From positions 1 through 60,739 of the forward strand of contig OMWN01000075.1 in NCBI GenBank assembly GCA_900314765.1: a DNA stretch of 60,739 nucleotides, in the 5' to 3' direction. Numbering within the stretch: the stretch's first letter is position 1; each line of letters opens with the position of its first letter. Under the pieces are notes generated by a model. The model was given only the letters and a program-made list of their open reading frames with translations. It was not told where the DNA came from and did not search any database. This DNA comes from an uncultured Selenomonadales bacterium. Lineage in GTDB: Bacteria > Bacillota > Negativicutes > Selenomonadales > Selenomonadaceae. The position numbers and the translations under genes were made by a program. Shown one piece after another: positions 15,553 to 24,238 of the stretch.

Positions 15553-16740
15553 ATGTTTTTTGGTAAGAAGGCAAAGAAATTTGCTGGTGCCATCCTCGGC
15601 GCGCTGATGCTCGGCGGCGTGCTCACAGGATGCGGCGGCGGCTCAGGCTCGAGCTCCGGCGGCAAAGACGCGGCTGACATCAAAGTCGGCGCGAACTTCG
15701 AGATGACAGGCAACGTCGCCAACTACGGCAACGCGACATACGAAGGTCTCGCGCTCGCCATCGACGAAGTCAATGCCGCAGGCGGCGTGAACGGCAAGAA
15801 AATCACGCTCGTAAAGGCAGACTCCAAGTCCGAGGCCTCCGAGGCAGCGAACGCCGCGACGAAGCTCATCTCCGATGACAAAGTCAAAGTGCTCGTCGGT
15901 CCTGCGACGACCGGCAGCGTGCTCGCCGAGGTCCGCATAGCGACAGACGCGAAGATCCCTATCATTGCGCCATGCGCGACGAGCCCGAAAGTCACCGTCG
16001 AGGACGGCAAAGTCCAGCCATACGTCTTCCGCAGCTGCTTCATCGACCCGCAGCAGGGCAGCGTCATGGCGAAATTCGCACAGGACAACCTCAAAGCAAA
16101 GACCGCTGTCGTCTACGTTGACTCCAGCTCCGACTACTCCAAGAGTCTCGGCCAGGTCTTCAAGCAGAAATTCGAAGAGGCCGGCGGCAAGGTGCTGATG
16201 GAAGAGGCATTCCTCCAGAAAGACCAGGACTTCAAAGCAACGCTCACAAAGCTCAAGACCGCAAATGCTGACGTCATGTTCGTTCCTGCGTACTACGAGG
16301 AAGTCGGCAAGATCGTGAAGCAGGCACGTGAGATTGGCATCACGACGCCAATCCTCGGCACCGACGGCTGGGATGATCCAAAAGTTGCCGACATCGCCGG
16401 CAAGGATGCCCTCAACAAGACATACTTCTCCACGCACTACTCCGACAAGGACGAGAGCGTAAAGCCGTTCATCGACGCATTCAACAAGAAATATGGCCAT
16501 GCTCCAAACGTCTTCGCAGCGCTCGGCTATGACGCCGGCAAGATGCTCATCGACGCCATCAAGCGCGCTGGCTCCGACGATCCTGCCAAGATCACCAAGA
16601 CCCTCGCTGAGACGAAAGACCTCAAGGCCGGCACTGGCACCCTCACCATGGACAAGAACCACAACCCAATCAAGCAGGCCGTCATCCTCGAGAACAAAGA
16701 CGGTGACCGCGTGATGGTTGCGAAGATCATGCCGGAATAA
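15553..16740 (+). CDS. LivJ-type branched-chain amino acid ABC transporter substrate-binding lipoprotein
   Basis: 395 residues with a lipoprotein signal peptide (LTGC, lipidated C27), followed by a type I periplasmic-binding fold (KVGANFEMTG, LVGPATTGSV, GTDGWDDP). It should capture branched-chain or related amino acids outside the cytoplasmic membrane. No permease (livH/M) or ATPase (livG/F) gene is adjacent, so its partners are encoded elsewhere. It has its own strong promoter and AGGAGG. It is followed after 6 nt by the promoter of tRNA-Leu. Confidence 0.9.
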   Translation: MFFGKKAKKFAGAILGALMLGGVLTGCGGGSGSSSGGKDAADIKVGANFEMTGNVANYGNATYEGLALAIDEVNAAGGVNGKKITLVKADSKSEASEAANAATKLISDDKVKVLVGPATTGSVLAEVRIATDAKIPIIAPCATSPKVTVEDGKVQPYVFRSCFIDPQQGSVMAKFAQDNLKAKTAVVYVDSSSDYSKSLGQVFKQKFEEAGGKVLMEEAFLQKDQDFKATLTKLKTANADVMFVPAYYEEVGKIVKQAREIGITTPILGTDGWDDPKVADIAGKDALNKTYFSTHYSDKDESVKPFIDAFNKKYGHAPNVFAALGYDAGKMLIDAIKRAGSDDPAKITKTLAETKDLKAGTGTLTMDKNHNPIKQAVILENKDGDRVMVAKIMPE

Positions 16741-16833: not shown

Positions 16834-16920
16834 GCCGGAGTGGCGGAATTGGCAGACGCACTTGACTCAAAATCAAGCGGTGTAACAGCCGTGCCGGTTC
16901 AAGTCCGGCCTTCGGCACCA
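16834..16920 (+). tRNA. tRNA-Leu (anticodon CAA)
   Basis: An 87-nt type II tRNA. The acceptor stem is GCCGGAG / CTTCGGC with a G-T pair and encoded ACCA. The D-arm is GGCGGAATTGGCAGACGC. The anticodon stem CTTGA / TCAAG holds loop CTCAAAA (anticodon CAA, reads UUG). It has a variable arm and the T-loop GGTTCAAGTCC. Its 3' portion and following terminator recur in degraded form at 20685-20787. Confidence 0.97.
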
Positions 16921-16930
16921 TAGAAAAATC

Positions 16931-16966
16931 AAGGCTTTCAGGGAATTCCCTGAAAGCCTTTTTTGT
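16931..16966 (+). terminator. Terminator of tRNA-Leu
   Basis: A perfect 13-bp stem (AAGGCTTTCAGGG / CCCTGAAAGCCTT) with an AATT loop and a T-run. An almost identical hairpin is at 20752-20787. The following stretch up to 17199 holds no convincing gene. Confidence 0.9.
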
Positions 16967-17199
16967 TTGCTTCTGCGTTTGTTACTTATAGTTGTTACTT
17001 ATGAGCACTTTCAGCGAATATGAATTCTAAAATCGGCTCGCTATAACAGCATCCAACCTTATTGCTGCGAATTACCGACTACACTACAAAAGCATCACGT
17101 CTTAAGCTATCCCATCTGCGACGAAATCAACGCCTGCTGCAAGTCGTTTTCGTCCTCGCTCTCCATGATTCCGTAGAGCGTCACGTCCTATTCTTTGCT

Positions 17200-18009
17200 T
17201 CAATCCACTTCCATTTCTTTGAGAAAGCTTATGATTTTGCGAAATGCGTCATCTGATGACATCTCATTCCAGTTTTTTCGCGATGTTGCGAGACGCTGCC
17301 GATAGCGTTTGTCGCTGAACGTCATTTCAAGGCGGCGAACGATGTCCGCAACGGTGTGTTCCCGCATGTCTCCCTTTCCAAAGATATAGAAGTCAAAACA
17401 GTGCTGGAGACGATTTTTGTCAACAACATCGACAAGATAGCTTAAGTCGAACACATCCTTGAACCGTGTAGAGAATGGGCCAAATTTCAAAAGTGATTTC
17501 AGCTTCTCCGTGAGCATCTGCTCCTTTGAATTGATGAGCAAGCTGGCACCGTCGTCATCCATGCAGACATCGAAGCAGTATTCGTCCTGCTCAATGTTGA
17601 AATCCTTGTGAACGCCGAAATCGATTTTCGTCTTGATGGAATTTCCCTCGCTGTCATGGATGATGACATAAACACGTTTTCCTTTATAGTCCTGCTGGCG
17701 AAGCGCTTCTATGCGCCCTGTTCGCTCAACGTGAAAATCCGAGTGCTTGTCTAGCTCCTGCAGAAAGCGGTCGATGGCAGCATCAGAAAGAGAATAGTGA
17801 ATGAAGTCCATGTCAATATCCTGCGTTGCCCTGCGCACATCTTTGGTGATGCTCTGCATCACGACGCCACCCTTGACGGTTACATTCCGATGCAGCGCAC
17901 TGTCTGAAATCGCCTTGAGCACGATGTCTTGGCAAAGCCTTGCCTGCGCATTCGCCTCGCCGTAGCCTTCCTGCCGAAGCATTGCGACCCATTCCGCCAA
18001 ATTCGCCAT
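17200..18009 (-). CDS. abiEii: AbiEii-type nucleotidyltransferase toxin (type IV toxin-antitoxin)
   Basis: 269 residues. The nucleotidyltransferase core is VKGGVVM (GG 47-48) followed by RRATQDIDMDF (D64, D66, D68), as in the AbiEii/MenT family. Downstream comes the basic helical region KEQMLTEKLKSLLKFG typical of the family. AbiE systems protect against phage by abortive infection; the related MenT toxins add nucleotides to tRNA acceptor ends. The ATG overlaps the stop of the antitoxin gene by 1 nt (TGATG), so the pair is translationally coupled. It lies inside the tRNA-Leu-bounded segment. Confidence 0.88.
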   Translation of the reverse strand: MANLAEWVAMLRQEGYGEANAQARLCQDIVLKAISDSALHRNVTVKGGVVMQSITKDVRRATQDIDMDFIHYSLSDAAIDRFLQELDKHSDFHVERTGRIEALRQQDYKGKRVYVIIHDSEGNSIKTKIDFGVHKDFNIEQDEYCFDVCMDDDGASLLINSKEQMLTEKLKSLLKFGPFSTRFKDVFDLSYLVDVVDKNRLQHCFDFYIFGKGDMREHTVADIVRRLEMTFSDKRYRQRLATSRKNWNEMSSDDAFRKIISFLKEMEVD

Positions 18010-18551
18010 CAGAAAACCTCCTGTTCCAAAATTTCCCGAATTTTGCCTGCCCGTGGGAATCGCATAAGGTATTCCTGCAAATTTGTTATGTCCAGTTCCT
18101 CCGCATGTGCGCGGTAGCGGCGCAGCACTTCCTTGTAGAAGTCGTATGGCAGCTTCGTCTTGTTTCGAGCAAGCTCTATCAGCATTCGCTCCTTGTCGTA
18201 GATGGGGACGGAAACGCCATCAATCTTGGCCGTTGTCTCACCAACATGAAGAATATGCGATGGGAGGAAATACTGATGCACGCGCGCATCGCGGATTTTT
18301 GCGTGGTCGGTGTCCGTCGCCAATGCGTAACGCTCGGGGATGTCATCCGTGAGGCCGTAATGGTAATAGGCACTCTCCATTGTCAGAATGGCGTTTGGGT
18401 ATTTCTTAATGATGACGGCAATTTCCGGCACGATTTTCTGCGTCGCATAGATGCCTCGCTCCAGTTTGAACAGTTCCTTCCGCTTGAGTGCGGCGTTAAT
18501 CTGATATGGGCTTTGGAAATGCTGCTCACATTCAGCGTAATTCATCAGCAT
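18009..18551 (-). CDS. abiEi: AbiEi-type antitoxin/autorepressor
   Basis: About 180 residues. An N-terminal winged-helix region (about 1-45, ending LERGIYATQ) is followed by the AbiEi-like middle part (ESAYYHYGLTDDIP, then YDKERMLIELAR). In characterised AbiE systems this protein represses its own promoter by binding inverted repeats and neutralises the nucleotidyltransferase. Here a 16-bp perfect inverted repeat lies in the leader. I placed the start at ATG 18551, 9 nt after AAGGAG; the ATG at 18560 abuts that site. Confidence 0.82.
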   Translation of the reverse strand: MLMNYAECEQHFQSPYQINAALKRKELFKLERGIYATQKIVPEIAVIIKKYPNAILTMESAYYHYGLTDDIPERYALATDTDHAKIRDARVHQYFLPSHILHVGETTAKIDGVSVPIYDKERMLIELARNKTKLPYDFYKEVLRRYRAHAEELDITNLQEYLMRFPRAGKIREILEQEVF

Positions 18552-18573
18552 GGTTTGCATCTCCTTTCGTTAG

Positions 18574-18621
18574 GTAAATATCCGTAAAAAATAAATTTTA
18601 CGGATATTTACTTTAATTATA
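18574..18621 (-). promoter_or_regulatory. AbiE promoter with a 16-bp perfect inverted-repeat operator
   Basis: On the minus strand an extended -10 (TGATATAAT, hexamer 18616-18621) is followed by the arms GTAAATATCCGTAAAA (18574-18589) and TTTTACGGATATTTAC (18596-18611), spaced by 6 nt. The repeat covers the expected start site. This fits negative autoregulation, as known for AbiEi. Confidence 0.75.
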
Positions 18622-18660
18622 TCACGCTTTTAAAAATTTGCTACAAACTTTTCCACATCA

Positions 18661-18694
18661 AAAAAAGAGCGGCTATGATGATTGCTCTTTTTTT
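18661..18694. terminator. Bidirectional terminator-like hairpin in the abiEi/AAA-ATPase gap
   Basis: AAAAAAGAGC (18661-18670) pairs with GCTCTTTTTT (18684-18693). It is not directly behind any called gene. It may insulate the divergent promoters or end a short minus-strand transcript from 18695-18840, where I see no good gene. Confidence 0.55.
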
Positions 18695-18839
18695 ACCCTC
18701 GTTGGGGGCAATTACCGCTGAGAGGGAAAAGCATACGTTGTCTGCGCATACAAAAAAGAACCAGCACATCCGCACCAGCTCTTTTCCTTCATTGAAAGCC
18801 TGTGAGGCGTACATTATCATGATGAATAGTGACGCTTTA

Positions 18840-18848
18840 TGATATAAT
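18840..18848 (+). promoter_or_regulatory. Extended -10 promoter of the AAA-ATPase gene
   Basis: TGATATAAT (hexamer 18843-18848), about 65 nt before the chosen start. No clear -35 is seen. Confidence 0.45.
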
Positions 18849-18913
18849 ATGGGCAAAAAGGAAGTCATGAGCAGTCGATGATTTATCTGCTCAAAAATGG
18901 AGAGGGCATCAGC

Positions 18914-20518
18914 ATGCGCGAAATCACAACATCGCTCTATACGTTCGAAGATTTAATAAAGGGCAACTGCATCTATGTCGATAAAACGAAATACATTTAC
19001 CAGCTTTTAAAAAAGGCAAAGGCTCAAATTTTTTGCTCTCGGCCACGCCGCTTTGGCAAAAGTCTCACGATATCGACGCTCGAAGCGATATTCGAAGGCA
19101 AGCGCGAGCTTTTCAAGGGGCTCTATATAGACAGCACCGACTACGATTGGTCTGTGCATCCTATCATTCATATTGATTTTGCAAATGGGAACGTACAGAC
19201 TTTGGAGCTATTAACACGCACCATTCTTGAAACAATGCAATCTACCGCACAATCCTATGGTGTGTCACTCCAAGAAGACGACCCGTCGCTTGCTTTCAAG
19301 GAGCTCATAAGAAAGCTCTACGACAAGACGGGCAAAGGCGTCGTGCTGCTCATAGATGAATACGACAAGCCTATCCTTGAGCATATAGGCAGCATGGAAG
19401 ACGCCGAAAAGTACAGAGACTATATCGGCAACTTCTATCAGATAATCAAAGGCTCAGAGCGGTATCTGCGCTTCACATTCATCACGGGCGTCACAAAATT
19501 TGCCAAGGTGTCGATTTTCAGCAAGCTCAATAATCTCGATGACATTTCGATGAACCCATCCTATGGCACCATGTTTGGCTACACGCAGGATGAGCTCGAG
19601 TCATACTTCAAAGAATACATTGATAAAGCCGTTGATGATACAGGCATGAAACGTGATGAGCTGCTTGCTGAAATCAAAAATTGGTATGACGGGTTCAAAT
19701 TCGCTGATAAATCGCTGTCCGTATATAATCCTGTATCCATTGGCAGCTTCTTCAACAACGGTTCTGATTTTGAAAATTATTGGTTTGCCACGGGGACGCC
19801 GACGTTTCTGATGAAACTCCTCCGAAGCAATCACATTGTATTGTCAGACCTTCCGAGGAGAACGCTAAACGGCACGTCTTTCAATACGTTCAATCTGACA
19901 GACCTCGCTCAGACGAGCCCCGACGACGAGCGCCTCACGCAGCTCCTCTATCAGACAGGATACCTCACGATTGACAAGCTCCTCTGGAGCAGCCCCGACA
20001 AGGTATATCAGCTCAAGTTCCCTAACTTTGAAGTGTCATATTCATTCGCTCAAAATCTGCTCTCAGAGTACGCGCCGAAAGCATCAGCCACAGACAACGT
20101 CACCAAAATACGCTTGGCAGCCATGGACGGCGATACGGAGGCCATGATAGAGCATCTCAAGGCTTTCTTCTCAGCATTGCCGTATGATATACAGGTCAAA
20201 GAGGAAAAGTACTACAAGTCAATCGTCTATACAATATTCAGAATGTGCAACATGAAGATGATGACGGAGGTCACGACAAGCATAGGACGCATTGACGGCG
20301 TACTTGATGCGGGAAAGCATCTCTACATCATAGAATTCAAGCTGAACAAGACAGCCGACGCCGCGCTCGAGCAGATCGACGAAAAGAAATACGCCGACAG
20401 CTTCATCATCCCTGCAAAAGAAAAAGGCCAAGTCATACACCAGCTCGGGATTAACTTCTCCTATGATGAGAAGACAAGGAATGTAAGTGACTGGAAGGAA
20501 GAAATCATAGGCAAATAA
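18914..20518 (+). CDS. AAA-ATPase-like protein with C-terminal PD-(D/E)XK nuclease-like domain
   Basis: 534 residues from the ATG at 18914, 8 nt after GGAGAGG; the ATG at 18878 has no such site. The N-terminus has an atypical Walker A, RPRRFGKS (43-50), and a Walker B, LLIDEYDKP (145-153). The C-terminal part has IDGVLDAGKHLYIIEFKLN, matching the D...ExK core of PD-(D/E)XK nucleases. This architecture (AAA-ATPase_like plus DUF1703) is abundant in gut anaerobes and of unknown function. Its place beside AbiE inside the tRNA-bounded segment suggests defence or element biology, which is inference. Confidence 0.85.
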   Translation: MREITTSLYTFEDLIKGNCIYVDKTKYIYQLLKKAKAQIFCSRPRRFGKSLTISTLEAIFEGKRELFKGLYIDSTDYDWSVHPIIHIDFANGNVQTLELLTRTILETMQSTAQSYGVSLQEDDPSLAFKELIRKLYDKTGKGVVLLIDEYDKPILEHIGSMEDAEKYRDYIGNFYQIIKGSERYLRFTFITGVTKFAKVSIFSKLNNLDDISMNPSYGTMFGYTQDELESYFKEYIDKAVDDTGMKRDELLAEIKNWYDGFKFADKSLSVYNPVSIGSFFNNGSDFENYWFATGTPTFLMKLLRSNHIVLSDLPRRTLNGTSFNTFNLTDLAQTSPDDERLTQLLYQTGYLTIDKLLWSSPDKVYQLKFPNFEVSYSFAQNLLSEYAPKASATDNVTKIRLAAMDGDTEAMIEHLKAFFSALPYDIQVKEEKYYKSIVYTIFRMCNMKMMTEVTTSIGRIDGVLDAGKHLYIIEFKLNKTADAALEQIDEKKYADSFIIPAKEKGQVIHQLGINFSYDEKTRNVSDWKEEIIGK

Positions 20519-20684
20519 AGGCTTCCTTAATTTCCAGCTGACAACATTTTGACAACAAACCACATAAAACAGACAGGGACGGGCAGTGACAGGCAGGAAA
20601 CATTATTCCTCTCCAGCCCAGTGATAGCAAGGCATTCAGGGATTTATAGGAATATATGAAGACAGCCTAAAATAGCTGACATAG

Positions 20685-20741
20685 AACTCAAAACCAAACG
20701 GTGTAAAAGCCGTGCCGATTCAAGTCCGGCCTTCGGCACCA
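20685..20741 (+). pseudogene. Degraded 3' fragment of tRNA-Leu
   Basis: It begins in the anticodon loop (ACTCAAAA), then runs CGGTGTAA-AGCCGTGCCG and ends with the T-arm and CTTCGGCACCA. There is no 5' acceptor or D-arm, and the anticodon stem is broken (ACCAAA), so it cannot form a tRNA. The fragment and the following hairpin match 16863-16966 with few mismatches. Read as one end (attR-like) of an insertion or duplication. Confidence 0.8.
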
Positions 20742-20751
20742 TAGTAAAATC

Positions 20752-20787
20752 AAGGCTTTCAGGGATTTCCCTGAAAGCCTTTTTTGT
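20752..20787 (+). terminator. Duplicate of the tRNA-Leu terminator
   Basis: The stem AAGGCTTTCAGGG / CCCTGAAAGCCTT has the loop ATTT-like instead of AATT and the same T-run. It can also terminate the AAA-ATPase transcript. Confidence 0.8.
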
Positions 20788-21160
20788 TTGCTTTTGCTAA
20801 AATTGACTTATTTTAGTGACTTATGAGTGTTTACAAAAATACGTTTCAGTGATTTTCTCTCTTTGAAAATTTTCCGTGGGGAACCGGGAAAATTTGATTT
20901 TTACCAATTTGCTATAATCAGCCATTACATATACAGCAGTTTTTATTCAGTAAAAAGATCGGCCGTCAGTTGTATAAATTTTGCCACATTCTGAATCGCA
21001 TAAGCCAAAGAGAAGGAATAGAGAGAAGTTTGATTATTGAACGAATGGACATGCTCGTATATTTTAGCGCATGACGAGCATAATGATGTCAGCTTTTTAT
21101 TCATTCAGCGGGCAATTTATTGTATAATATATGAAAGGATGTATTGCGGAGGACGAAAAA
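20788..21160 (+). other. AT-rich intergenic region with one inverted repeat and a promoter
   Basis: No gene is seen. A 9-bp inverted repeat, AAATTTTCC (20867-20875) and GGAAAATTT (20887-20895), could form a hairpin. TATAAT at 21123-21128 is a likely -10 for the gene at 21161, without a clear -35. The base composition is AT-richer than in most of the window. Confidence 0.4.
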
Positions 21161-22834
21161 ATGACGGTAAAGAGCACAATGCCAATCGGCGTGACGGACT
21201 TCAAGGAATTGCGGGAGAATTATTATCTCGTGGACAAGACCGATTTCATCAGACAGTTCATAGATGGCAGGAGTGCCGCGACGCTCATCACAAGGCCGCG
21301 TCGCTTTGGCAAGACGCTTTTCATGAGCATGATGGATTGGTTCTTTTCCATTGACAAAAAAGAGGCGAGTGAGCACCTCTTTGACGGCCTCGCGATAGAT
21401 AGGGCTGGCGAGAAATACATGGCGCAGCGTGGCTCGCGGCCCGTAATTTCTTTTTCACTGAAGGGAATTGAGGGAAGCACATGGACGACGGCAAGAAATA
21501 TTTTCTGCCGCCGAATTAGAGAACTTTATAAAAAATATTACTATTTATGGGAGAATAGCGACCTAAAGGATGACGACAAAACCTATGCCCAAAATATTGT
21601 AAATCTTAAGGGCGAGCCAGAGGACTACCTTGACAGTCTTAAAGATCTTTCGAGAATGCTCTTTGAGTACCACGGGATAAAGCCTGTTATGCTGATTGAT
21701 GAGTATGATGCTCCGCTTCAGTACGCATACGACAACGGCTATTATGACGAAGCAGTAACATTTTTCCGCACGTGCTACAATTACGCGTTTAAGGACAATG
21801 AGTATCTCGATTTCGCCATCATCACAGGCGTGCTCCGTGTTGCCAAGGAAAGCATATTCAGCGGGCTCAACAGTCTCGATGTGTGCTCGGTCACGACGGA
21901 CAAGTACACGGAAGCCTGCGGCTTTACGCCTGCCGAAGTGGAGAGCATGGCAAATGAGCTTGGCTTTGCTGACAAGCTGCCCGAAATAAAAGAGTGGTAT
22001 GACGGCTATCACTTCTCTCAAAGCGACATCTACAATCCGTGGTCTGTCATTAACTACGTCGACAAAAAATTCACGCCGCAGCCATACTGGATAAATACTT
22101 CGTCGAATGGCATACTGGAAAAGTTGCTAAGCCACGCGGACAAAGAGCGCTTTGATGAGCTTGATGGACTCATCAAAGGTGAGCCAATCTGCACCGTCCT
22201 TAACGAGGGAATAATGTATGAAAGCATCGGAAGGAATGCTGAAGACCTGTACAATATGCTCCTTACATCAGGCTATCTGACAATAGAAAAAAATAGCGGA
22301 CAGCTTGATCGCAGACCTGTTGACATGATTATTCCGAACAAAGAGATATGCATGGTGTATGCTGATGAAATACTTAGATCATTGATGCCAACATCAGGAG
22401 TCGGACTTTCGTTGATGATGCTTGAGTATATGCTCAGAGGAAATGCAGAGAAGTTTGAGTCATCATTGAAGAAAATAGTTGAACAAATAGCGAGCACTTT
22501 TGACACGGCCAAGGACAAGCAGGAAATATTTTATCACGGGCTCATGCTTGGCTTCACGGCGACGCTTCACGGCAACGGCTATCAAGTGAAGTCCGAAGGT
22601 GAAGCTGGCTATGGCAGATTTGACGTCGCGATTTTCCCTCTCGACAATAAAAACCCCGGCGTGATACTGGAATTCAAGGTAGCCGACGATGAGAAAAGCC
22701 TCGAAAAAGCTGCCGAGGATGCGAAAAATCAAATCAACGACAAAGGATACATCGCGGAATTCGACAGCAGAGGCGTGAGAAATGTTTGGAAATATGGCAT
22801 CGCCTTCTGCGGGAAGAACGTACTGATGAGATAA
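21161..22834 (+). CDS. AAA-ATPase-like protein with C-terminal PD-(D/E)XK nuclease-like domain (second copy of the family)
   Basis: 557 residues from the ATG at 21161, which has GGAGG 8 nt upstream (the ATG at 21131 does not). It has the same layout as the gene at 18914: TRPRRFGKT as an unusual Walker A (44-52), MLIDEYDAPL as Walker B, and a C-terminus with GRFDVAIFP and GVILEFKVADD (D...ExK). The two proteins are clearly related but diverged, so this is an older family expansion rather than a recent duplication. It lies just outside the right tRNA fragment. Function unknown. Confidence 0.87.
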   Translation: MTVKSTMPIGVTDFKELRENYYLVDKTDFIRQFIDGRSAATLITRPRRFGKTLFMSMMDWFFSIDKKEASEHLFDGLAIDRAGEKYMAQRGSRPVISFSLKGIEGSTWTTARNIFCRRIRELYKKYYYLWENSDLKDDDKTYAQNIVNLKGEPEDYLDSLKDLSRMLFEYHGIKPVMLIDEYDAPLQYAYDNGYYDEAVTFFRTCYNYAFKDNEYLDFAIITGVLRVAKESIFSGLNSLDVCSVTTDKYTEACGFTPAEVESMANELGFADKLPEIKEWYDGYHFSQSDIYNPWSVINYVDKKFTPQPYWINTSSNGILEKLLSHADKERFDELDGLIKGEPICTVLNEGIMYESIGRNAEDLYNMLLTSGYLTIEKNSGQLDRRPVDMIIPNKEICMVYADEILRSLMPTSGVGLSLMMLEYMLRGNAEKFESSLKKIVEQIASTFDTAKDKQEIFYHGLMLGFTATLHGNGYQVKSEGEAGYGRFDVAIFPLDNKNPGVILEFKVADDEKSLEKAAEDAKNQINDKGYIAEFDSRGVRNVWKYGIAFCGKNVLMR

Positions 22835-22906: not shown

Positions 22907-24238
22907 TCATAATTTTCTCATACGCACGCCCATCGCAATCGCGCCGACGAGGTAAACGAGTGGAAGCGTGAGGGCGATAAGACCGATGATGTTGCCGATG
23001 CCGCCCCAGATTGGTGCTGTCATGCCGATGATGATGAGCACGGCGAATGTGATGGGCACTTTCCATATCGGCGCTTTGAAGTCTGGCACGAATCGGCCAG
23101 CAGATTTGTTCACTGTATTTTTCCAACGTGTCGAGTGAACCATGAGTCCGCTCACAATCATGATGACGGTGAAGATGAGGTAGACAGCCCATATAATTTT
23201 CTGAATGAAGAGGTCGTGACTGTGTATGTGGAGGTTGAGCGCAGATGAAGCGAGCTTTATCCACGCAGGCATCGGCGCGAGGTACGGCGCCGCGCTAGTC
23301 GATGCGTCCTTCGGCACGAATACCATTTCGCCGAGCATGAAGTTCGTCATTTTCTTTGGTGGCTCTGTCATCTGCACAATGTAGAAGTCGTCACCCGCGG
23401 ACGGCATAAGCACGGATATGGCCACCATGTCCGGGTGCTCCGCCCCAGCCCGCGCGAGCGCATCGGCCGCGCTGATGATGCGCGCCTCGTCCCCACCGTC
23501 CGCCCGCGCCGCTTCGTAATGCTCCGCGGCCATCACGGGCGCCGCCTCCCTGTAGTCGGCGACGCCCACGGAGTACGCGACGATCATGAGCGCCGACACA
23601 GAGAGGAGTCCCGCAAATGTCGCGGCCGCGACGGAAAATACCTTGTGCATGTCCGAGTAATAGAGCCGCGTCGATTGGCGGCGCATGATGCCGAAGCGCA
23701 CGCCCTTCATCATGGGCGCGTAGATGAAAAATCCGCTGATGATGGCGATGATGGACAGGAAGCACATGAACGTGAGGAAATATCGACCCGCCACGCCGAG
23801 CCCGAGCTGCACATGAAGGATGTGAATCTTGAACATGATGTCCTTCACGAGCTTCGAGCGATATTTGCGCTCTTTGCGGCTCATCATGTCGCCCGTGCGC
23901 ACGTCGTACATCACTTGCTCGCCGCCCATGCGGAGCTGCGCGGCCTCTGACTTGTTGCCGCTGCCAAGCCTAAAGTATATCGTGCCACTCCCCGCGTCTG
24001 GCGTCGCCGCGACGATTTGCTTGCCGCTGTATGCGGCGCCCACGCGCTCGAGGCCGTCTGTCAGCCCCTCCCATATTTCACCAATGGACATCGCGCCGTC
24101 AGTCGTCATCATGTTCATCGTGTTTGCCGCGTTTATCTCGCGTCTGAAAAGGAGCCCTATCCCCGTCACGGTGAGCAGCAACAAAAACACCGCGCAAATG
24201 AGGCTCACCCATCGATGAATTTTCAGCATTGTTTTCAT
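22907..24238 (-). CDS. PepSY-associated transmembrane protein
   Basis: A 443-residue protein with the PepSY_TM layout. The N-terminal helix HRWVSLICAVFLLLLTVTGI is followed by an extracytoplasmic domain, then helices around 145-170 and 210-230, a second periplasmic-type domain, a helix after LHIHSHD, and two C-terminal helices. Histidines near membrane segments (HRW, KIHILHVQLG, DMHKVF, HIHSHD) could bind haem or metal; relatives are linked to iron and siderophore reduction. That role is inference. AGGTGA precedes the ATG. Confidence 0.82.
   Translation of the reverse strand: MKTMLKIHRWVSLICAVFLLLLTVTGIGLLFRREINAANTMNMMTTDGAMSIGEIWEGLTDGLERVGAAYSGKQIVAATPDAGSGTIYFRLGSGNKSEAAQLRMGGEQVMYDVRTGDMMSRKERKYRSKLVKDIMFKIHILHVQLGLGVAGRYFLTFMCFLSIIAIISGFFIYAPMMKGVRFGIMRRQSTRLYYSDMHKVFSVAAATFAGLLSVSALMIVAYSVGVADYREAAPVMAAEHYEAARADGGDEARIISAADALARAGAEHPDMVAISVLMPSAGDDFYIVQMTEPPKKMTNFMLGEMVFVPKDASTSAAPYLAPMPAWIKLASSALNLHIHSHDLFIQKIIWAVYLIFTVIMIVSGLMVHSTRWKNTVNKSAGRFVPDFKAPIWKVPITFAVLIIIGMTAPIWGGIGNIIGLIALTLPLVYLVGAIAMGVRMRKL

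Follow-up and report, generated by a model that had tools for sequence, protein, structure and literature searches.

Genomic islands inserted into tRNA genes fall into two classes in the Islander survey, the commoner of which has an anticodon-centred attachment site (class A; 2083 of 3919 islands) and is recognised by an intact tDNA together with a displaced 3′ fragment of it in direct orientation (PMC4383910). A related kind of locus is the cis-mobilizable element (CIME), which, when derived from integrative and conjugative elements (ICEs) or integrative and mobilizable elements (IMEs), keeps its attachment (att) sites after the integration and transfer genes have been lost and accretes at tRNA genes (PMC5704250, where Pavlovic 2004 and Bellanger 2011 are cited for CIMEs and tandem accretion). 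The locus described here lies at the tRNA-Leu(CAA) gene of the 60,739-bp contig OMWN01000075.1 (contig C94, referred to as the window), one of the 103 contigs that make up a draft genome of 2.3 Mb. The host is a rumen-type Selenomonadaceae bacterium near Schwartzia, its LivJ-type protein being 91% identical to the homologue of a Schwartzia sp. metagenome-assembled genome. The locus is best classed as a decayed, CIME-like tRNA-island accretion, a known kind of genomic fossil that is unusually clear here.

As in a CIME, the att sites of the window are retained, the integration and transfer genes are gone, and decayed elements are probably stacked at one tRNA 3′ end. CIMEs, however, come from conjugative or mobilizable elements, whereas the source of this island may have been a phage rather than an ICE or IME: no transfer genes remain in the window, and the known element at tRNA-Leu(CAA) in a relative (the complete Selenomonadaceae genome G141) looks like a prophage. 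The class A islands share with the locus the intact tDNA, the displaced 3′ fragment in direct orientation and the crossover at the anticodon, but the Islander filters need an integrase gene inside the island and this one has none. The features of the attachment region, all on the forward strand, are as follows.

16834-16920, forward: intact tRNA-Leu(CAA) gene, the integration target (ARAGORN)
16865-16976, forward: left att-type repeat, the tRNA from the anticodon loop to the 3′ end plus terminator (112-bp direct repeat)
16931-16960, forward: terminator hairpin of the tRNA-Leu gene, a 30-bp palindrome followed by a T run (self-inverse matches, sequence)
16979-17002, forward: integrase arm-type tandem repeat TTGTTACTTAT-AG-TTGTTACTTAT, period 13 (tandem repeat, genome pattern search)
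20539-20557, forward: TGACAACA-TTT-TGACAACA, a weaker repeat (8/8 unit) and possibly a second arm, 147 bp ahead of the remnant core
20686-20797, forward: right att-type repeat, a non-functional tRNA-Leu 3′ remnant plus terminator (match to 16865-16976)
20805-20824, forward: arm-type repeat after the remnant, GACTTAT-TTTAGT-GACTTAT, period 13 (tandem repeat, genome pattern search)

The tRNA-Leu(CAA) gene is the only tRNA that ARAGORN finds in the window. Its 3′ half and terminator recur 3.8 kb downstream in direct orientation, the two 112-bp copies being identical at 105 positions (93.75%) and differing at seven, four of them within the tRNA part and three within the terminator and flank. A chance origin is excluded, since the repeat used as query reached at best 53/112 in 50 shuffled versions of the window. 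A fainter homology continues past the right repeat to 20825 (88% over the longer match). The repeat starts at tRNA nucleotide 32, the 5′ edge of the anticodon loop, and the downstream copy is non-functional because tRNA nucleotides 1-31 are missing from it. Only abiEii, abiEi and one gene with PF09820 and PF08011 domains (AAA1) lie between the copies. The original prediction had described the repeat, the remnant and an enclosed AbiEi/AbiEii pair with an ATPase-nuclease, and the Pfam and PADLOC gene calls agree with it; its view that the event is old is likewise supported.

When 189 family genomes were searched at the DNA level, 186 gave matches; several of the relatives compared are drafts. 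In G141 a second, partial copy of tRNA-Leu(CAA) is found 42 kb downstream of the gene (100 bp, 99% identical). This repeat begins at tRNA position 32, exactly as in the window, and includes the terminator. An integrase gene lies approximately 100 bp from the tRNA, and the 42-kb interval holds open reading frames (ORFs) of prophage character (repressor-like, single-strand-binding, terminase-like and tape-measure-sized, as judged from their N-termini and sizes). In G140, of the same genus, neither a second tRNA 3′ copy nor an arm repeat was found in the ~17.9 kb fetched downstream. The match to the repeat of the G141 prophage, together with the absence of a second copy from the interval fetched in G140, thus gives the window repeat the anatomy of an att site. 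The two loci have in common the tRNA, the repeat start, the terminator within the repeat and arm-type tandem repeats; the G141 element differs in its 42-kb length, its integrase and phage-like genes and its arm sequence. The original prediction had read the locus as the footprint of an element inserted in a tRNA gene, and integration at a specific site within the tRNA-Leu(CAA) 3′ half is strongly supported. Comparison of the same tRNA in relatives reveals sites that are empty, occupied by a prophage, or marked by arm repeats only, so the site is not invariant across genomes.

Arm-type repeats provide a further mark of integration. Where a site is occupied, a direct repeat of ~10 bp stands in tandem behind the terminator, its period being 11-13. 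In G141 the arm after the terminator is TTTTTGACATCATTTTTGACATCA; TTTGACATC-tt-TTTGACATC stands 127 bp before the far core, TTTGACATC-type repeats are present on both sides, and similar arm-like repeats occur beyond the far remnant. Arm-like tandem repeats were observed 45-125 bp after tRNA-Leu(CAA) at 11 of 32 sites, against 19 of 964 control windows (2%; p=2e-10). Their position, and their pairing with the integrase in G141, suggest that they are integrase arm-binding sites. In the 2.3-Mb genome studied here the pattern KACTTAT-N6-KACTTAT has exactly two occurrences, one after the tRNA and one after the remnant. None of the 188 further genomes of the family has the exact left form, and the arm repeat was not found in the viral collection. 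Viral contigs with a tRNA-Leu 3′ end do exist, with a tRNA and flanks of another type, and apparently come from other taxa; in the phage collection the tRNA-Leu matches are from Salmonella only. The repeat at 20539 may be a right arm of another sequence, although it could have arisen by chance.

Two further sites carry repeats of this type. On another contig of the same genome (C62:27158-28833; L097 18325-20000) a tRNA-Ser(CGA) gene is followed by the arm-like repeat TTTTTGGGCACATTTTGGGCACA. In G040 (C1 ~379736-381600; L108) the tRNA-Leu(CAA) terminator and its arm are repeated 1.8 kb downstream without any tRNA part (89% over 80 bp), which is likely to be another layered remnant.

The window contains no tyrosine integrase (PF00589), either annotated or found by profile, and a tblastn search of the window, including the intergenic gaps, gave nothing above noise that could be a relic of one. 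The lack of an integrase noted in the original prediction is thereby borne out, and the island is therefore a decayed and not an active one. Nor was an integrase with matching arms, which that prediction had advised looking for, found elsewhere in the genome: there are three PF00589 hits, one of which, with the profile range 18-167 common to nearly every genome, is probably an Xer protein, and the arm pattern is confined to the two island sites. The same tRNA in another genus shows the steps by which an integrase can be lost; three sites there have the arm GTGAGCACATGGTGAGCACAT or a one-base variant in common. The integrase of G013 is intact at 400 aa, a C-terminal fragment of 126 aa remains in G016, and G008 has arms only, with no integrase within 17 kb. 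Arms with no PF00589 hit nearby are also present in G040 and G177. The sites of G005, G007, G017 and G120, where the downstream contig is too short, are left out of this comparison. In the complete genome G177 (C1 ~2243646; L107) the arm repeats at tRNA-Leu(CAA) are followed downstream by minus-strand, phage-like ORFs of 2236 and 856 aa, and no PF00589 integrase lies within ~190 kb of the tRNA.

The island extends beyond the remnant. The GC content is 0.556 in the left flank, falls to 0.33-0.49 across 16976-22834, and returns to 0.575-0.582 in the next genes. The LivJ gene (15553-16740) lies to the left of the island and a PepSY gene (22907-24238) to its right. The low-GC tract hence passes the boundary of 20.8 kb set by the original prediction and runs to ~22.9 kb, through a second PF09820 and PF08011 gene (AAA2) that sits just outside the interval first described; the foreign DNA therefore includes AAA2. 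A single insertion into an untouched tRNA would leave an arm on the tRNA side only, so the arm after the remnant means that the tRNA was already occupied at the arrival of the inner element. We infer that at least two insertion layers are likely, with AAA2 probably the cargo of the older one. Of the small tRNA-borne element first proposed, integration at the tRNA stands; its limit at 20.8 kb is not supported, in view of the low GC, AAA2 and the second arm. The island at tRNA-Leu(CAA) is very probably a stacked, decayed structure of ~6 kb.

The history that would produce this arrangement begins with mobile elements, at least one of them probably phage-like, inserted by tyrosine-integrase recombination. 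An attP carrying the 3′ half and terminator of tRNA-Leu(CAA) would have recombined with the chromosomal tRNA gene, each insertion restoring a working tRNA and displacing the old 3′ half outward, and two or more insertions would have accumulated at the site. Later deletions would have taken away the integrases along with the greater part of the remaining genes for mobility. What was left would be the intact tRNA and its arm repeat, the displaced remnant with the second, and cargo between and beyond them. That cargo would have been held by selection, and consists of two STAND-like NTPases with a PD-(D/E)XK nuclease and the type IV toxin-antitoxin pair AbiEi/AbiEii. The island would no longer be capable of self-excision, and a foreign integrase of the right arm specificity could in principle use its att sites.

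We hold this explanation as a whole, that of repeated insertion at an integration hotspot followed by decay, with high confidence. Several observations weigh against it. No third tRNA remnant was found beyond AAA2, and the outer end of the older layer was not located. No integrase relic is left, so that an integrase has to be deduced from the relatives. The possible right arm at 20539 does not have the sequence of the left one; if it is genuine, the inner interval might tentatively be seen as ends of different elements joined by deletion. An orthologous empty site is not demonstrable because the order of genes around the tRNA differs in the sole congeneric genome compared, where the tRNA lies between other genes and has no arm repeat, and the LivJ gene is not near tRNA-Leu(CAA) in any relative fetched and scanned. 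In that congeneric genome (G001; L015 4751-5443) LivJ is followed by a gene whose N-terminus, on reading its sequence, resembles a large restriction-modification-type methyltransferase, so the neighbourhood of LivJ also appears to vary between species.

Three other explanations can be set beside that of stacked insertions. The locus could be a single small integrative element, whole but for its integrase, as first proposed, or an element of satellite type that the integrase of another element moves in trans, with 16865 and 20797 as its limits. Two att-type repeats do enclose a compact 3.8-kb unit with arm repeats at its left end, and the spacing of 147 bp between the core and the possible right arm is close to the 127 bp of the G141 prophage. 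A second arm of the same type after the remnant is not, however, expected after insertion into a naive tRNA, the low GC and the second ATPase-nuclease extend beyond 20797, and the genome holds no integrase with matching arms elsewhere; such an element is accordingly judged unlikely. Less probable still is a decayed tandem duplication of tRNA-Leu in which the second copy has lost its 5′ half. Tandem tRNA-Leu(CAA) genes do exist in the family (G049 and G050) and the remnant has retained its terminator, but the 5′ break coincides to the base with the start of the repeat of the integrase-bearing G141 prophage, and for this reason the locus is judged not to be the decayed or ancestral tandem array which the original prediction had weighed as a counter-reading. 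The copies are moreover 3.8 kb apart with low-GC accessory genes between them, and both bear arm-type repeats that are otherwise present at a minority of sites.

A duplicate made by homologous recombination, or an error of assembly, with no integrase involved, is slightly more remote still. The genome is a draft in 103 contigs, and similar terminators are found at another tRNA, tRNA-Ser(CGA). Against an assembly duplicate are the seven substitutions between the copies, while the breakpoint and the arm repeats suit integrase chemistry and the live example at the same tRNA. The cargo assigned to the island, with the probable operator, is listed below.

17200-18009, reverse: AbiEii nucleotidyltransferase toxin, 269 aa, motifs I-IV (Pfam PF08843 E=1e-16; PADLOC AbiEii E=1e-116)
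18009-18560, reverse: AbiEi antitoxin/autorepressor, 183 aa (PADLOC AbiEi E=1e-68; solved AbiEi 6y8q E=1.3e-9)
18574-18611, unstranded: palindrome TAAATATCCGTAAAA/TTTTACGGATATTTA beside a TATAAT -10 box, the probable operator of AbiEi
18878-20518, forward: AAA1, PF09820 AAA/STAND-like NTPase and PF08011 PD-(D/E)XK nuclease, 546 aa (Pfam, motifs, structure model)
21131-22834, forward: AAA2, second PF09820 and PF08011 gene, 567 aa, 26% identical to AAA1 (Pfam; low GC)

The abiEi and abiEii genes form a bicistronic unit with an overlap of 1 nt at 18009. AbiEii has the motif I/II signature VKGG-x15-DID (hGG-x15-DhD) with the motif-II arginine, a lysine-containing motif III, and the motif IV sequence KDVFD (+DxxD), as these are defined in PMC3985639; a solved relative is AbiGII (9hlo). 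By its sequence the pair is a genuine AbiE type IV toxin-antitoxin system with all catalytic motifs kept. The predicted operator is a palindrome immediately past the TATAAT box. Relatives also have it, in perfect or imperfect form, ahead of abiEi, and the window copy shows matching changes in its two arms (CCG with CGG). The S. agalactiae AbiEi/AbiEii system (PMC3985639) has the same gene order, overlapping genes, four AbiEii motifs and a palindromic autoregulatory site at the promoter. It differs in its overlap of 4 nt, and the window AbiEi, known here from sequence, has no Pfam hit at 1e-3.

In both S. agalactiae and M. tuberculosis, AbiEi is known to regulate itself through inverted repeats in the promoter (PMC7319586). 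Most likely as elsewhere, AbiEi would repress its own promoter through the palindrome and neutralise AbiEii, a predicted GTP-binding nucleotidyltransferase that would arrest growth when released. AbiE is able to confer phage resistance and to stabilise mobile DNA (PMC3985639), and either property would explain its retention here. The suggestion that the cargo serves in phage defence is thus well founded by homology for AbiE, whereas for the ATPase-nuclease part it is a matter of deduction, so that a defence role for the cargo of the island may be proposed at that strength. Another genome of the family (G152; L175 4513-6359) has an AbiE pair directly downstream of a tRNA-Ala(CGC) gene; the promoter palindrome of the pair is near-perfect, and no arm-like repeat is obvious there.

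AAA1 contains both the PF09820 and the PF08011 domain, with the Walker A sequence RPRRFGKS, the Walker B sequence DEYD and a nuclease ExK motif. These same motifs, with the ExK at the C-terminus, are found in the described DUF1703, or PF09820 and PF08011, proteins (PMC1913061), which are expanded in Cardinium (PMC6387759); the difference is that here ~eight copies occur in one genome, one of them in a tRNA island with AbiE. The genome has eight PF09820 hits in total. A paralogue of AAA1 on contig C62, 95.6% identical in protein sequence, lies ~0.5 kb from tRNA-Ser(CGA) and runs off the contig end, giving a second tRNA locus that carries this cargo gene. Of the 108 changes between the two genes 88 are at third codon positions, with a dN/dS of ~0.04, and the protein is therefore maintained by strong purifying selection. 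On contig C99 (5603-6754; L102) a PF09820 gene ends after ~391 residues inside the contig and is probably a truncated paralogue.

AAA1 has no sequence relative in the Protein Data Bank. Over residues 14-460 its structure model (mean predicted local distance difference test score 83.7) corresponds to the fold of STAND/NLR NTPases, the comparison being mostly on residues 10-402. The highest similarities are to an archaeal ATPase (2qen, Z 16.8), the plant NLR RPP1 (Z 14.9) and CED-4 (Z 14.3), and the values for Avs5 (Z 11.7) and Avs3 (Z 11.3) are middling and indicate similarity of fold only. The C-terminal part resembles the PD-(D/E)XK domain of Wolbachia CidB (Z 12.0 over 144 residues). On this model AAA1 would be a STAND-like NTPase with a PD-(D/E)XK nuclease, a common fold not meaning a common function. 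Although its predicted N-terminal fold matches that of Avs and other NLR-type STAND NTPases, AAA1 lacks their C-terminal sensor repeat domain and ends instead with the nuclease.

As PF09820 is listed among the domains of RADAR and PARIS components (PMC10952713), a defence role is plausible for AAA1. A broader and rather doubtful proposal is that the PF09820 and PF08011 proteins could be compact STAND-type nucleases, an NLR/Avs NTPase core fused to PD-(D/E)XK with no separate sensor, acting as anti-phage effectors that are selectively retained with AbiE as carrier elements decay at tRNA hotspots. Two other ideas were rejected. PF09820 genes are not a general cargo of tRNA sites, a tRNA being within 1.5 kb of only one of ~30 AAA1 relatives. 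Nor do AbiE and AAA1 form one two-part system: AbiE is present in seven and AAA1-like genes in 17 of the 189 family genomes, with only three genomes in common, in the other two of which they are not adjacent.

The arm-type repeats offer a simple sequence mark for integrase-less islands that are overlooked by integrase-based finders, and the retained, selected DUF1703 genes are concrete candidates for phage testing. Members of a single family show, at the same tRNA, a live prophage, a truncated integrase and arms standing alone, so that the loss of mobility can be traced stepwise. Within this series the locus illustrates how cargo of defence type may outlast the mobile elements that delivered it.

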